From a bacterium (GTDB lineage Bacteria > JAGOBX01), in the NCBI GenBank assembly GCA_029551925.1, contig JAKPEO010000063.1, forward strand, positions 1 to 33,266: a DNA stretch of 33,266 bases, read 5' to 3'. The notes below the pieces were generated by a model. That model was not told the DNA's origin and ran no database searches. It saw nothing but the letters and a program-made list of their open reading frames with translations. Positions 445 to 6,860 of this stretch are shown piece by piece. The translations under genes were made by a program, and so were the position numbers. The number at the start of each line of letters is the position of its first letter. The first letter of the stretch is position 1.

Positions 445-3400
445 TTAGCGTTTGAGCGTTAATAATTCCTGAATCATCTGGTCTTCTGTCGTGATAGTTC
501 TAGAATTTGCTTGAAATCCGCGCTGTGTTGTTATCATTGTAGTAAATTCGTATGCTAAATCAACATTCGCTTGTTCTAAATTGCCAGACGCTACGGTTCC
601 GCGACCGCCTGTGCCAGATACTCCAATACGCGCTTCACCGCTATTGCTTGTAGTACGATATAATGAATTACCGGCTTTTAATAAACCAGCTTCATTATTA
701 AAATTAGCGAGCGCTATCTGCGCTATATCGCGAGAATAACCATTATCATATAAACCTGTAATTATACCAAATTGATTAATTGCAAATTCTGTCAATGTTC
801 CTTTTGCATAACCATTCTGATGATACAATTCAGCATCACTCGTAGAAGCATATTGCACTAACTGCGAAAAATCCGGCATTATCATTACTGGATTAGCGCC
901 TTCCGGCGGTATTGGCGCTCCGCCCCAATCTGACGGATCAAAGAATATTCCCGGATAAACTATTGGACCAGTAACGCCGCCAGAACTCAAACCTACTTGC
1001 GAATTAAATGTAATAGACGCAGCAGGATCATACGACCCGTCCGCTCTGAACGCTATTAATCCGTAACCAGCGAGAGATACATTATTCGGATCTTTCGGAC
1101 ACGGGTCTTTTACTGACCACATCCATAAATTATCGCTTTTGCGTTCAAATGTAATCGGAATATTATGCGCTCTGCCAAGCGAATCATAAACATTTATATT
1201 GGTCACATATTGAAAATCATTAACTTTATTCATCGTAGCAGTTACAGGCGCACCGCTGATTGCTAAGCCCACTCGCGTTGTGCCAGCATTATAAGAAGTA
1301 GTAAAACTCGTATCTGATGAAGTAGAAACTTCGCTGGTATTCGGCTGAAATGTAATTGGATCTGCGCCTGTCAAACTGCCGCTCGGCACAAATATTTCCG
1401 TGATTCTGCCACTTGCATCTTTTACTCTAATATAATCACGATGGCCCGGTTCTTCTGATACTGATTTATGCGTATCAAAATAAAATGTATCATTAGCAGC
1501 AAATGGCCCAGACCAGTTTGTCCACGGGATTTTAATTGTTTCATCAGCAAGCGCAGAATTATAATTTGGATCATTTGGATCAGTATAATTAGTAGCTCCA
1601 GCAGAAATTATATTTTTTTCCAAATCCAAATCATTTTCTATATTCTGCCCCACAACAACATTTATCCAACTTTGAGTAGTAGTATCATATTTTTCTAAAT
1701 TATAAGTAGTAGCATCAGTAAATACAACACGGTAATTTGCAGGCGCTGGGTTTATCTGTGTAGTTGTAAAATCAACATATTTGCCTGCCGGCATATTTGT
1801 TGGATCCAACCATGCTTCGCGTTTTATATAAATACCTAATGAATTGAAATCTTCTTTAACATTACCTGTTGCAATTATTACGCCATTAGTATTAACAATA
1901 TTGAAATATGGATTTGTATCATAATTATAATCAGATGGTATCTGAATTCTATATGTAACTGCTGGCAATACAAAACCGTCAACTGCCGCTTCGCTAAAAT
2001 CAAAATACTGTGTGCCTAATGTGCTACCTTCATATACTGATTGCGCATCAATTAATTCCGCAGCCATAGCATTAACTGCGCCAGTGCCATTGCTGCCTGT
2101 TGCTGTATAAGCAGAAACTAATGCTCTTGCGTTTACATCGCCATTAATAGCGTTTATTACTTGCTGCGCTGTTGTAACGCCATCAGTAATACCAACGGTA
2201 ATAACTCCGCCTGCTATTGTTATTGTCGGCGGATTTGCGCCTGTATTTGAATATTCTATTGAAACATTACCTGCGCCGGCTTTAGTTCTGAATGTAATCG
2301 CAGAATTGCCTGCGCCGATTGTTTCTTCACTCACTTCAGCAGGCGGTACTAATCTTACAGAACGATTAACGCTTACCGCTTGCAATGAGCCACTATTCAA
2401 ATTATTAGTATTCGCTGCAACCGGCTTTGACGCTACCATAACAGGCCAGTCATCTTCTTCTTTTGGCATTTCTATATTCAAATTTAACATTTGCGCATAT
2501 TCTGCTACTGTATCGCTTTTACCTGTCTGAAATGTAATAACATCTCCGCGCTGCGCTGTGCCTTTCCAATCAGACGCTAATATTGTCAATTGCCCATACA
2601 TTTTTCTATTTGCCGCATCTGAACCAGTAACATATGTGAAAACAGTATTAGTATAAATGCTTGCTACGCCTGCTGCCACATCATTATTATTCGCATCTTT
2701 TACACTTTCGCCTGCGTCATCGCCTACTAAATTCCAACTCGAACCATTATCAGTCGATACCCATAATGTATATTTAGTGGTATCAGATTGATCAAATCTA
2801 ACTTGCCACAATGCCGCTTCAACATTAAATTGATTGCGAACATCTACTTTGCCTAAACTTATATTTCCTTTATTCGTAACAGATGAAACAGGAACACTCG
2901 CATTAGCGACCCACGGACGATTAGTATTAACATAATTTCCAATAACTTTGCCATTACTATCAAGTTCTACAATACCTTCAGCTTGGGATCCGGTATTTTC
3001 ATCTATTACTGCATCGCCTACTTTATAACCAGCCGGAGGATTTTCTGCCCAAACTGCACGCCAAATAAAATAATTTTTGTCTGGCGATACATGTTCGAAT
3101 TCCATTTTTACTTTGCTAACTGTATATGAACCCTCGCCGCCTGTTATCCATTCTACTACTACCGGCTCAATCGCTGTCTTATTTAATGAATTCAAATTGC
3201 CTATTAATTCTACTGATGTTGTTGCTTTTGCAGGAATAATATCGCCAACTTTTATTTGAATATTGCCAATCGGCTGAGTTGACGAGTTAATCGTATATTC
3301 GCCAGTTAGAGAATCTATCTGCGCTTGCCAACCTTGAACTTTCATACCATTAGAATAAACAAGCGTGCCCTGCGCATCTAACTGAAAACTACCATTGCGC

Positions 3401-3738
3401 GTATAATATAATGCATCGCCATCACGCACTATAAAAAAACCGCTGCCTTGAAGCGCTAAATCCAATGTTCTGTCAGTGCGTTGCAATGCGCCTTGCGTAT
3501 GATCGCGCAGCATACTGCCAATATTCACGCCTAAACCTATTTGCTGCGGACCTGTGCCGCCTTTATTTCCTTGCGGTCCGTGAGCGATTTGTTTTAATTC
3601 GCTCATAAAATCAGTAAATACTACATCGCTTCGTTTGAAGCCGACTGTATTAATATTCGCTATGTTGTCACCGATTACATCCATCTTAACTTGATGAACT
3701 TGCAATCCGCTGACACCAGACCATAATCCTCGCATCAT
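445..3738 (-). CDS. flgE: Flagellar hook protein FlgE, greatly enlarged
   Basis: FlgE polymerises outside the cytoplasmic membrane to form the flagellar hook. Residues 1-35 are a typical rod/hook N-terminus (MMRGLWSGVSGLQVHQVKMD, DNIANINTVGFK). Residues 70-180 carry the conserved GSGFFIV and YTRNGSF motifs, VYDSLGRAH at 850-858 is the usual domain after the core, and residues 1050-1097 are the C-terminal rod/hook segment. FlgE usually has about 400-460 residues; this one has 1097. About 650 extra residues lie between 190 and 840, and part of them (roughly 466-563) resembles the beta-rich repeats of adhesins and tail proteins. The only cysteine is Cys880, 13 residues after Lys867. The SD is GAGAAGGAG, and the start is the first of two adjacent ATGs. 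A structured leader precedes the gene. Confidence 0.95.
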   Translation of the reverse strand: MMRGLWSGVSGLQVHQVKMDVIGDNIANINTVGFKRSDVVFTDFMSELKQIAHGPQGNKGGTGPQQIGLGVNIGSMLRDHTQGALQRTDRTLDLALQGSGFFIVRDGDALYYTRNGSFQLDAQGTLVYSNGMKVQGWQAQIDSLTGEYTINSSTQPIGNIQIKVGDIIPAKATTSVELIGNLNSLNKTAIEPVVVEWITGGEGSYTVSKVKMEFEHVSPDKNYFIWRAVWAENPPAGYKVGDAVIDENTGSQAEGIVELDSNGKVIGNYVNTNRPWVANASVPVSSVTNKGNISLGKVDVRNQFNVEAALWQVRFDQSDTTKYTLWVSTDNGSSWNLVGDDAGESVKDANNNDVAAGVASIYTNTVFTYVTGSDAANRKMYGQLTILASDWKGTAQRGDVITFQTGKSDTVAEYAQMLNLNIEMPKEEDDWPVMVASKPVAANTNNLNSGSLQAVSVNRSVRLVPPAEVSEETIGAGNSAITFRTKAGAGNVSIEYSNTGANPPTITIAGGVITVGITDGVTTAQQVINAINGDVNARALVSAYTATGSNGTGAVNAMAAELIDAQSVYEGSTLGTQYFDFSEAAVDGFVLPAVTYRIQIPSDYNYDTNPYFNIVNTNGVIIATGNVKEDFNSLGIYIKREAWLDPTNMPAGKYVDFTTTQINPAPANYRVVFTDATTYNLEKYDTTTQSWINVVVGQNIENDLDLEKNIISAGATNYTDPNDPNYNSALADETIKIPWTNWSGPFAANDTFYFDTHKSVSEEPGHRDYIRVKDASGRITEIFVPSGSLTGADPITFQPNTSEVSTSSDTSFTTSYNAGTTRVGLAISGAPVTATMNKVNDFQYVTNINVYDSLGRAHNIPITFERKSDNLWMWSVKDPCPKDPNNVSLAGYGLIAFRADGSYDPAASITFNSQVGLSSGGVTGPIVYPGIFFDPSDWGGAPIPPEGANPVMIMPDFSQLVQYASTSDAELYHQNGYAKGTLTEFAINQFGIITGLYDNGYSRDIAQIALANFNNEAGLLKAGNSLYRTTSNSGEARIGVSGTGGRGTVASGNLEQANVDLAYEFTTMITTQRGFQANSRTITTEDQMIQELLTLKR

Positions 3739-3750
3739 AAAAAATCAACT

Positions 3751-3834
3751 CCTTCTCAATTTATCAAAAAATTATTTTCGTCGTCTCCATCGCTCGACGA
3801 CTGAGAAGGGCTCCTCTTAAACGAGTCCAGCCCT
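3751..3834 (-). promoter_or_regulatory. Structured leader RNA of flgE with anti-SD switch potential
   Basis: In the RNA sense there are two hairpins. P1 has AGGGCU/AGCCCU (3829-3834 with 3807-3812) enclosing GGA, a CUC/GAG stem and a GUUUAA loop. P2 is GUCGUC/GACGAC (3796-3801 with 3780-3785). The segment CCUUCUCA (3802-3809) is exactly complementary to the flgE SD region UGAGAAGG (3751-3758). It shares three bases with the P1 stem, so the two pairings exclude each other. P1 and its GCUGGACYCG sequence recur upstream of fliK at 6788-6841. I do not recognise it as a known riboswitch class. Confidence 0.5.
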
Positions 3835-3886
3835 AATATAAATAAAAAACAATTAACTTTTTCTAAAAAATCTTTATACATTCACA

Positions 3887-3916: not shown

Positions 3917-4318
3917 TCACGCTAATACAGCGCTGTCAATATTTGTAAATACATTTTCTTTAAGCGTATCGCCAGTCATAACAGTAATCACAGTATTATT
4001 CTTCACGCTCACTACCATTGCAATATCGTCTAACATAACTAATGTTTCTTTGGCGCCTTTTGCGCGAGCGCGTTCTACCGCATTGTTCAATCTTTCCATC
4101 TTCTCGCCGTCTAATTCAACATTCCTATTAATTATCCGTTCTTTTGCATGACCTGAAAACTTAATCTTACTTTCTTCTAATAAATTCTGTAAAATATTAC
4201 TAAATTCTTCCGATACCGCTCCTGCTGCTTTCTTCTGTGCGCTGCTTACTTCGGAACTTATCGGTTTTGTAATTATTGGTTGATACGCATTAATATTCAA
4301 TCGTTCACCATTTATCAT
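3917..4318 (-). CDS. Flagellar operon protein, TIGR02530 type
   Basis: The 133-residue product has the family signature in its central part: FSGHAKERIINRNVEL, then AVERARAKGAKETLVMLDD and IAMVVSVKNNTVITVM. Such proteins are encoded between flgD and flgE in many flagellar operons and are thought to help hook assembly; the molecular role is not established. It has no signal peptide or membrane segment, so it is expected in the cytoplasm. The ATG at 4318 follows GGAGGTG, which lies inside a hairpin (4332-4360). A candidate promoter overlaps the end of flgD, so this gene may be expressed separately from flgD. Confidence 0.85.
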   Translation of the reverse strand: MINGERLNINAYQPIITKPISSEVSSAQKKAAGAVSEEFSNILQNLLEESKIKFSGHAKERIINRNVELDGEKMERLNNAVERARAKGAKETLVMLDDIAMVVSVKNNTVITVMTGDTLKENVFTNIDSAVLA

Positions 4319-4391: not shown

Positions 4392-4850
4392 TTACTGCAA
4401 TTCCGCAGTATTCGGCACACGCGTAGTTTTCACTTCGCTCAATTTTACAGTTTTGCCTTGCATTGTCGTTAGTTTCGGTTCAGAACCGCTTAAATCAATA
4501 GATACTACTACGCCTGAAACTTTTTCAATAGTAGTATTGCCTTGAACAGTTGTTACAATTTCGGCATCTATCGAAGTGCCGAGTAAATTCAACACTCCTA
4601 AACTTCCTGAGCTCTGCACATAATTAGTCATTGTCTTATTCAAATTTTGCATTTGTTCTAATGAACTAAATTGCGCCATTTGAGCAATAAACTGATCGTT
4701 AGACATCGGATTTAAAGGGTCCTGATACCGTAACTGTGTAGATAATAACTGCAAAAACTGGTCTTTACCGAGCGCTGAAGCGTCATTAGATTTTGATGTT
4801 GAGTTGCCCTGCGACATATACTGATACGCATTTGCTCCCATTATTTGCAT
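4392..4850 (-). CDS. flgD: Hook-capping protein FlgD, short form
   Basis: FlgD forms the scaffold on which FlgE subunits assemble. The family N-terminal block is clear at residues 25-75: DQFLQLLSTQLRYQDPLNPM, then FIAQMAQFSSLEQM. At 152 residues it is a short form, with a small beta-rich tail (about 95-150) in place of the larger C-terminal domains of the enterobacterial protein. The start at 4850 is supported by GGGAGG nine bases upstream; the internal Met4 has no better site. The gene follows fliK with a strong hairpin (4886-4927) over the fliK stop codon. Confidence 0.93.
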   Translation of the reverse strand: MQIMGANAYQYMSQGNSTSKSNDASALGKDQFLQLLSTQLRYQDPLNPMSNDQFIAQMAQFSSLEQMQNLNKTMTNYVQSSGSLGVLNLLGTSIDAEIVTTVQGNTTIEKVSGVVVSIDLSGSEPKLTTMQGKTVKLSEVKTTRVPNTAELQ

Positions 4851-4885: not shown

Positions 4886-4927
4886 TATATAGCGAAATCG
4901 ACATTATTATATCGATTACGCTATATA
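4886..4927 (-). other. Hairpin overlapping the fliK stop codon
   Basis: The arms 4886-4901 and 4912-4927 pair over 16 positions with a single mismatch and a 10-nt loop. The stop codon of fliK lies inside one arm. There is no good U-tract, so a role in mRNA processing, stability or translational coupling to flgD is more likely than termination. Confidence 0.5.
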
Positions 4928-6631
4928 ACTGATTGTGCTGTAACGACGGTCAATATAATCTGACGCGCCGCTCGCCGCTGTTCCAGATTCATTGATATTT
5001 TCTAAATTTTCAATTTCATCTGAATCTGAGTTACTCAACTCGCCGCTTCCTCTACGCTTGCCGCGACTGTCTAATTCGCCGCGATTGCTATACTGATTTT
5101 CCTGATTAACTGACACTTCAAAACCAGCGATTTTCAAGCCCTGTTCTTCAAGCGCTGATTTTAATTGACTAATATTGCTTTCGAGTAATTGTTTCGCTTG
5201 TTCATTTTCTGAAACAAACCGCGCTACTACGCTGCCATTTTCCATCAGCAAATCAATTTTAACCTTTCCTAAATGCTCGGGTCTTAATTGAATTTCAACT
5301 TGTTTTACAGCAGCATCGCTCAATATTTTAATCTGCTGTATCATCTGTTCAAATGTCTGACGATAAACAGTAGTAGTATAAGACGATTGCTGCATTGCCG
5401 GTTGACGCAATAAATTACTCATTTTAGCGCTGCCACTTTCCTGTCCGCTGTTTTGATTAAACATAAAACTATTTGCATTTTGGTTATTTGCAAATTTCGG
5501 CATTGAATTTTGCGCAGCTTCTAATTTCGATGATGCGTCGATTCCTAATTTCATCATACTTTCTGATTTAACTGATGTTGATAATTTGTTAGAATTATCT
5601 AACTTTTGCGGACCAGCCGCAATATTCGATAATAACGCATTTTTTATCTTGTCAGTTAACTCGGAATTATTAGAAAAATTAGCAGCCGCTTTATTATCAT
5701 CAGGCGCTTTCATCGCATCGCGCAAATTTTCCGCTCTTTTCAATCGCTGTAAATTATTAAGTTTTTCTTTTAATGCCGCTAATTCGTCATTAGACAAAAG
5801 TTCGCGGTCTTTACTCAATAATTCTGCATCAGTTATCTGGATTTTCGCTTCCTCTTGATGTTTAACTACTTTTTTAGTTTCTAATTTTTCTGAATTATCG
5901 CTTTTAATATTTGCAAATTCAGTATTCGCTGATTTTTCAAATTCTGATTTTGCTGAATCAACAGATTGTTTGCCCTCGTCTTGCGACTGAATCTGTTGTT
6001 TCGCAGAATTATCAGTTTTTTCAGCGTTTGTTTTTTTAGCATTCGCAGATAATTCAGAAATCTTCAACGCTAACTGCTTCATAATTTGAGAAGATTTAGC
6101 GCTGTCGTTTTCCTCTAACGCTGCTTTGACTTTGCTTAAATCTATGCCCTCTTTTTTAAGCATCGTCTTTAACTGGTCAATTGACAAATTCATTAATTCT
6201 GCAATTTCCGCTATTAATCGCTCAACATTTTCACTTTTGCGTTCTTTTGAAAGTTGACGCAATTTTTCTTGAAGTTCCGCTTTATTTTCGCTATCTGCCG
6301 CAGTTGTTTTCTTTTCGGATTGCTGAACATTTGATTTTTCCGCAGTTTCAGCAGACATTTTTTCAGCTTTTTCATTTTTCAATTCAAATTGCGAAACGTT
6401 TTCGTTTAAAATATCGAACCCATTAGTCATAGAATTTTCATTTGTTTCTAAATTCAAAAACTTCGACGAATTTCTGTCTATCGCAGAATCATCTATCTGT
6501 TTCTGATTCATCTGCTGCATAGCCATAAATACATTATTAAACGAAACTGTCTCGTTCATAGATAATTGCAGTCCTGAGTTTTTCAACAATTTACCAGTTA
6601 AATTAATTCCACTCACCGCTTCGATTTTCAT
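4916..6631 (-). CDS. fliK: Flagellar hook-length control protein FliK
   Basis: FliK measures the hook and switches the export substrate from hook to filament proteins. The conserved C-terminal domain is at about 440-513 of 571 residues, with VEIQLRPEHLGKVKIDLLME and a following long helix. The region before it is a long, charged and low-complexity ruler rich in Glu, Lys, Ser and Asn. I place the start at 6631 (MKIEAVSG) because it has an excellent SD, AAGGAGGTGA. An upstream in-frame ATG at 6676 would add 15 residues but has no site. A candidate promoter and a structured RNA lie in the 271-base gap before it. Confidence 0.92.
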   Translation of the reverse strand: MKIEAVSGINLTGKLLKNSGLQLSMNETVSFNNVFMAMQQMNQKQIDDSAIDRNSSKFLNLETNENSMTNGFDILNENVSQFELKNEKAEKMSAETAEKSNVQQSEKKTTAADSENKAELQEKLRQLSKERKSENVERLIAEIAELMNLSIDQLKTMLKKEGIDLSKVKAALEENDSAKSSQIMKQLALKISELSANAKKTNAEKTDNSAKQQIQSQDEGKQSVDSAKSEFEKSANTEFANIKSDNSEKLETKKVVKHQEEAKIQITDAELLSKDRELLSNDELAALKEKLNNLQRLKRAENLRDAMKAPDDNKAAANFSNNSELTDKIKNALLSNIAAGPQKLDNSNKLSTSVKSESMMKLGIDASSKLEAAQNSMPKFANNQNANSFMFNQNSGQESGSAKMSNLLRQPAMQQSSYTTTVYRQTFEQMIQQIKILSDAAVKQVEIQLRPEHLGKVKIDLLMENGSVVARFVSENEQAKQLLESNISQLKSALEEQGLKIAGFEVSVNQENQYSNRGELDSRGKRRGSGELSNSDSDEIENLENINESGTAASGASDYIDRRYSTISYIA

Positions 6632-6787
6632 ATTCTTTTTCACCTCCTTTTTGCAAAATTTAAAAATTTCAAACATTAAAATTCAAAAAATAAATTTTAA
6701 TGTTTTATATAAAACAAATAATTCTACAAAAAAATTATTTGCTTTTTTTAATTATTTTTAGCAGTGAAGAAAATAGGTATTCATTCA

Positions 6788-6841
6788 GGCGAAATCAATC
6801 AGTCATTCGCCAGTAGATATGCCTCCCTTGCGGGTCCAGCA
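6788..6841 (-). promoter_or_regulatory. Structured RNA element upstream of fliK, related to the flgE leader
   Basis: In the RNA sense UGCU-GGA-CCC-GCAA-GGG-A-GGCA (6820-6841) forms an outer and an inner stem separated by a GGA bulge. A second hairpin GGCGAA/UUCGCC (6806-6811 with 6788-6793) follows. The first hairpin matches the flgE leader in sequence (GCUGGACYCG) and layout, with different stem bases that still pair. It lies about 157 nt upstream of the fliK ATG and about 13 nt after the predicted transcript start. No anti-SD for fliK was found. Confidence 0.45.
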
Positions 6842-6860
6842 ATTTTACTTTTTTCTCCAC

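Follow-up and report, generated by a model that had tools for sequence, protein, structure and literature searches.

The hook protein gene flgE in a stretch of bacterial DNA of 33,266 nucleotides (contig JAKPEO010000063.1, hereafter the window) is preceded by a compact RNA element of two hairpins, P1 and P2, whose pairs covary and which recurs in the same place, ahead of the same gene, in Clostridia and in many other bacterial families. We lean towards reading it as a widespread, undescribed cis-regulatory RNA in which an exchange of pairing between P1 and the Shine-Dalgarno (SD) region gates FlgE synthesis, the factor involved being a protein that reports on flagellar export or assembly.

The flgE leader and its gene context

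The leader sits inside a flagellar operon, in the gap of 178 nt between flgE and the gene upstream of it. Read 5' to 3', P1 (3834-3807) comes first; a short linker separates it from P2 (3801-3780), after which come A/U-rich sequence, the SD region and the start codon. The features are as follows; R1 and R2 are covariance models built from 3 and 12 sequences, respectively.

445..3738, minus strand: flgE, hook protein, 1097 aa (Pfam Flg_bb_rod, LlgE_F_G_D1, FlgE_D2, Flg_bbr_C)
3738-3736, minus strand: flgE start codon ATG, 3' of the SD region
3751..3758, minus strand: flgE SD region UGAGAAGG, read directly from the sequence
3776..3835, minus strand: whole conserved two-hairpin element of the flgE leader (R1 68.5 bits, this leader being one of the three sequences from which R1 was built; R2 53.5 bits)
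3780..3801, minus strand: hairpin P2, stem GUCGU/ACGAC, 12-nt loop CGAGCGAUGGAG of the pattern N-GA-NN-GA-NN-GA-N (from covariation)
3802..3809, minus strand: anti-SD CCUUCUCA, overlapping the 3' strand of P1 and running into the P1-P2 linker
3807..3834, minus strand: hairpin P1, outer stem AGGGCU (3834-3829)/AGCCCU (3812-3807), inner stem CUC/GAG, loop GUUUAA (from the sequence)
3917..4318, minus strand: flagellar operon protein gene, directly 5' of the flgE leader (Pfam Flagellar_put, E 2.1e-12)

The predicted fold of the 178-nt leader together with 19 nt of flgE beats that of 199 of 200 shuffled sequences (z -3.3). The FlgE encoded in the window has several hundred extra residues between its D1 and D2 domains, compared with hook proteins of roughly 300-500 aa elsewhere.

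Structure and covariation of the two hairpins

Support for the structure grows with the number of sequences compared. A plain MAFFT alignment of three sequences, which like the flgE context is independent of any fitting to a covariance model, has 6 of 14 pairs altered on both sides, and 97.6% of its cells pair. MAFFT alone misaligns the diverse sequence set, and covariance-model alignments, which are fitted to the model, were therefore used for the larger sets: with 12 sequences covariation extends to 13 of 14 pairs (95.7% paired, against at most 44.8% when slid), and with 85 distinct sequences to 14 of 14, every P1 pair included (96.0% of cells pair). The covariation score of the latter set is 0.79, compared with 0.26 when shuffled and at most 0.18 when slid, and within P2 all six modelled pairs covary (97.6% paired). 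The initial annotation of this DNA had named a lack of compensatory changes in homologous leaders as refuting its proposal of a switch-like RNA; such changes are abundant. That annotation made no mention of hairpin P2, the site of the other conserved element.

Conservation among the 85 sequences is higher at unpaired positions than in the stems. P1 contains an internal loop, formed in the window by GGA (3828-3826) facing G (3813), in which the GG is invariant while the third base is A in 77 of 85 sequences and C or U in 7; the facing base is A in 76 and G in 9, hence the designation GGA/R loop. The P2 loop is 12 nt long in 82 of 85 sequences, and GA stands at positions 2-3, 6-7 and 10-11 in at least 82. 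Loops that stay constant while their stems change suggest that a specific partner binds the element. Judged from the sequences, it is the P1 GGA/R internal loop and the 12-nt GA-GA-GA loop of P2, rather than the anti-SD at 3802-3809, that make up the broadly conserved features.

Two variants of this architecture were observed. A Clostridia subgroup (L033, L034 and L035, at about 4920-4970) keeps P1 and has a P2 loop of only 5 nt (CGAAU or CUAAU) rather than 12 nt. In another genome, a single flgE leader contains two tandem copies of the element (L154, 1501-1556 and 1617-1671; G573:C82).

Copies in the same genome and family

The window itself contains a second copy, ahead of the hook-length control gene fliK.

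4916..6676, minus strand: fliK, hook-length control, 3' of the second element copy (Pfam Flg_hook, E 1.5e-25)
6785..6844, minus strand: second element copy, upstream of fliK (R1 34.7 bits, whole-genome E 5.7e-6; R1 was not trained on it)
6788-6811, minus strand: P2 of the second copy, GGCGAA[UGACUGAUUGAU]UUCGCC (from the sequence)
6820-6842, minus strand: P1 of the second copy (GCUGGACCCGCAAGGGAGGC) (from the sequence)

A third copy in this genome, found by a pattern search, precedes a flagellin gene (L036; Pfam Flagellin_N, 5.7e-40). The nearest relative, JAGOBX010000341 (L032; genome G001), belongs to the same family and has a FlgE 67% identical to that of the window; before its flgE the sequence reads GGCUGGACUCGAAAGAGAAGCC - UUCUCA - AUACCGG[CGAUUGAUUGAA]CCGGUAU. 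P1 and the same 8-bp SD/anti-SD pair are kept there, with compensatory changes, and the P2 stem differs in sequence but keeps its pairing through compensating changes, around an unchanged loop pattern; the rest of the leader is mostly poorly alignable.

The flgE leaders of the window and of this relative, together with the flagellin copy, are the three sequences from which R1 was built. Its further matches in the family lie before the fliK of the window, before the fliK of the relative (L042), between two flgG/flgF-type genes (L043) and on contig G001:C456, and R2 added a copy before flgG in the relative (L158). The gene in L042 is named fliK because of where it lies and because its N-terminal part is rich in lysine and glutamine; its first 330 residues have no Pfam match. 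The copy on G001:C456 (L167, around 330-444) lies about 300 nt 5' of the start of a flagellin-like ORF at the contig end, a call based on 38 residues (Flagellin_N E 2.8e-4, below the Pfam cut-off). The family targets are thus flgE, fliK, flagellin and flgG. Hook, ruler, distal-rod type protein and flagellin are all proteins that pass through the flagellar export apparatus.

Some further features of these loci may be recorded here. The L167 copy is followed, before the flagellin-like ORF, by a GC-rich hairpin and a U run resembling an intrinsic terminator, on account of which the element may act on transcription at this locus. Just 3' of the relative's flgE is a long, near-perfect inverted repeat (L032, 4377-4454) with weak matches to miRNA models, which is probably a terminator. 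The record of the relative is labelled Candidatus Dependentiae, yet it bears flagellar genes, which are unexpected under that label; the taxonomic label may be doubtful.

Distribution beyond the family

A DNA search with the leader in 60 relatives gave a convincing match only in the same-family genome, the others being short and mostly A/T-rich. Three Clostridia flgE leaders share P1 with the window; a whole-genome R1 search in three named Clostridia missed their flgE copies, which have a short P2, and local scoring detects them. When the P1 pattern was searched for in the class of one of these Clostridia, many chance matches were returned along with five leaders directly 5' of flgE. All five have a P2 with the 12-nt GA-GA-GA loop, and R1, trained on its own family only, scores them at E 3e-7 to 2e-5.

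R2 matched in 44 of 391 genomes of the Clostridia class and in 37 of 386 diverse genomes. The covariance models together gave 87 places (85 distinct sequences), and later 35 more; where contexts were read, nearly all matches with E <1e-4 are directly upstream of flgE. A FlgE_D2 gene is present in 79 of the 391 Clostridia-class genomes, 23 of which are among the R2 genome-scan matches. Because the genome scan is insensitive, the regions upstream of flgE were fetched from the FlgE_D2-positive genomes it had missed, 38 of them usable. The element is found in 35 of these regions, each time directly before the FlgE start, and three have no such structure before the start codon, which brings the total to 58 of 61 hook-positive Clostridia-class genomes examined. 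Among the diverse genomes, the element stands before flgE in about 25 families outside its own, by our count of family labels. Its distance from the start codon has a median of 29 nt and exceeds 100 nt in some leaders. The element is absent from the flgE region of E. coli K-12 (L171), where the gap between flgD and flgE is 24 nt.

Six matches before non-flagellar genes (L128, L129, L161, L163, L164 and L165) were dropped, with E values of 0.001-0.005 and a number in keeping with the false positives expected. L127 (E 1.6e-4), with a good P2 and a poor P1, is considered doubtful.

Three loci with other downstream genes were also noted. A strong copy of 47.7 bits (L168, 2619-2676; G514:C57) precedes a proline-rich protein of 298 aa far from the flgE of that genome; this protein has no credible Pfam match and is possibly an unrecognised co-regulated or exported protein. 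In L169 (G264:C40), two copies (3407-3462 and 4498-4567) precede two short ORFs with like starts, M-G/A-I-N-G-I-S-T-G-Y; the first ORF is apparently frameshifted, and neither has a Pfam match. A 39.7-bit copy about 190 nt 5' of a sigma-70-type factor gene (L170, 1999-2053; G654:C67) is the only well-scoring one whose target looks non-flagellar.

Pairing between P1 and the Shine-Dalgarno region

The initial annotation had described 3802-3809 as an exact eight-base complement of the flgE SD region with three of its bases in P1. Both statements are borne out: on the minus strand, 3809-3802 is exactly complementary to 3758-3751, and the shared bases are 3807-3809, or two (3808-3809) if the terminal A3834-U3807 pair is excluded. 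The window leader thus contains two competing pairings, and of 3000 dinucleotide-shuffled leaders only 0.13% have an equally long complement to the SD segment (p 0.0013). The further claim that P1 formation and SD masking are mutually exclusive stands for the window and for L032, but the exact anti-SD is common to these two alone and is conserved only within the family. No anti-SD is obvious in the copies before fliK, flagellin and flgG.

The 5' strand of P1, too, can lie opposite the SD, and in leaders that lack the exact anti-SD, P1 retains a likeness to one. In a set of 65 flgE leaders, the energy of the P1-SD duplex is better with the native SD than with the SDs of other leaders, and the excess persists when close relatives are removed (p <=0.002 with 17-40 representatives, also without the window and L032; permutation p-values are approximate, as the leaders are phylogenetically related). 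Complementarity to P1 peaks at the SD (z -4.7) and declines downstream, and P2, used as a negative control, has no comparable excess. Co-adaptation of P1 and SD is therefore supported statistically.

The energetics of a switch were modelled in 61 leaders by comparing states with P1 formed and with P1 broken, P2 being held. The two states have almost the same energy, the median difference being -0.2 kcal/mol, and at least half of the SD is paired in 43 of the 61. Swapping P1 between leaders reduces the advantage of the masked state (p 0.0115), while SD pairing in the P1-broken fold is no higher than in swapped leaders. Predicted SD accessibility at equilibrium is the same with native as with shuffled P1. 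On these models an SD switch in flgE leaders is a plausible, partly supported candidate mechanism; of the control logic proposed in the initial annotation, the structured RNA and the excess P1-SD complementarity speak in its favour, whereas the expected effect on predicted SD accessibility was not seen.

Comparison with known RNAs

The leader, which the initial annotation did not know as a described family, is not a described Rfam family either, the window having no match at gathering thresholds to any of 4227 Rfam 15 families. When element copies of the window, of its family, of Clostridia and of other groups were scanned permissively against Rfam 15, the matches were weak, none above the gathering score or to a plausible bacterial leader family; the c-di-GMP-I and c-di-GMP-II aptamer models, Termite-flg (RF01729) and flg-Rhizobiales (RF01736) did not match in these scans. 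The last two are likewise conserved RNA motifs named after flagellar genes, and are listed only from termite hindgut and only from Rhizobiales, respectively (PMC2864571). Literature searches and discovery papers yielded no description of the element; supplements and the 2017 set of 224 candidate RNAs lay outside their scope, so that an earlier unnamed listing is possible.

By analogy only, the element resembles autogenous leaders such as those of ribosomal-protein genes, which are structured RNAs of one structural gene and can mask the SD; the binding protein of the flgE element, however, is only postulated. Hook-protein synthesis that responds to assembly has a precedent in Salmonella, where, going by the title cited in PMC4032328, the stage of assembly regulates FlgE posttranscriptionally (Bonifield et al. 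2000), although the flgE region of E. coli is without the element.

Alternative explanations and proposed mechanism

CsrA-controlled flagellin leaders (C. jejuni flaA, B. subtilis hag) share with the element a structured flagellar leader, a GGA near or at the SD and a tie to assembly state. A CsrA dimer might bridge the GGA of P1 and that of the SD, repressing flgE until FliW frees it, as in flagellin mRNA. Of 56 genomes that carry the element, 51 have a CsrA scoring above the family cut-off, among them that of the window, where fliW-csrA is present, and a C. jejuni CsrA pull-down shows enrichment of flgE mRNA, with values of 68-fold and 7-fold in two different data columns (PMC4894983). However, CsrA is common in flagellated bacteria anyway, and it has no match above the cut-off in the other five genomes (possibly owing to assembly gaps). 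The GGA of the C. jejuni flaA 5'UTR lies in hairpin loops (PMC4894983), whereas that of P1 lies not in an apical loop but in an internal one closed by a covarying inner stem, and its third base varies, with CsrA present, where checked, in the genomes of the seven sequences with C or U. These GGC/GGU variants and the geometry of P1 rule out a universal apical-loop CsrA site. Neither does CsrA explain the invariant P2 loop, which has no counterpart in the flagellin leaders, and the gene controlled here is that of the hook protein; we regard this explanation as improbable. About equally improbable is a riboswitch for a metabolite or second messenger, with P1 and P2 as a small-molecule aptamer and the P1-SD exchange as its expression platform. 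The compactness of the RNA, its strictly conserved unpaired bases and competing pairings, and the tandem copies in L154, an arrangement known from some riboswitches, would fit, and structured RNAs do control flagellar genes in Clostridia, as does the c-di-GMP-I riboswitch of the C. difficile flgB operon (PMC3649979). The c-di-GMP riboswitches nevertheless have a different operon position and no sequence or structure match to the element, no other Rfam riboswitch matches it, and near-confinement to one structural gene would be an unusual regulon, since the targets of metabolite riboswitches usually include enzymes or transporters.

A role in RNA processing or stability, in which the hairpins stabilise a processed flgE mRNA or set its 5' end and so increase hook protein with neither ligand nor switch, agrees with the position of the element between operon genes in the window and, generally, some 30 nt from the start codon. 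Simple stabilising stems, though, have no need of an invariant 12-nt loop and a GG internal loop over so many families, and the co-adaptation of P1 and SD counts against a pure stability role, which we rate slightly below the two preceding explanations. That the hairpins and the SD complement arose by chance and have no function has next to no probability: the low complexity of the A/T-rich leader is the sole point in its favour, and it is refuted by covariation and fixed gene context, with the rarity of such complements in shuffled leaders also against it.

In the P1-SD exchange that we favour, we infer control at the level of translation. The SD would be free as long as P1 and P2 are folded, a state that a bound factor might maintain; once P1 opens, one of its strands (in the window, the anti-SD at 3802-3809) would pair with the SD and FlgE synthesis would fall. 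The factor would most likely be a protein reporting the state of flagellar export or assembly, given that flgE is nearly always the gene behind the element, joined in its own family by fliK, flagellin and flgG. Counting against the exchange, besides the accessibility results, are the confinement of the exact anti-SD to the family, the leaders with more than 100 nt between element and start codon, and the terminator-like hairpin of L167. Extended to exported subunits, the RNA might be a widespread checkpoint of flagellum building, read by a factor and gating subunit synthesis by the same exchange, a wider reading that we put forward tentatively and with somewhat less than even confidence.

Implications

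How bacteria other than enterics match hook-protein synthesis to assembly is poorly understood. With this element there is a defined RNA for mutation, pull-down and probing, and a covariance model for mapping it; as a marker, it may also lead to more proteins that are exported or co-regulated. Its near-universal presence in the hook-bearing Clostridia-class genomes examined, and its occurrence at the same place before the same gene in the other families, imply that flagellum assembly has a control step that is old and conserved; cells may widely tune the production of hook protein through a so far undescribed RNA.
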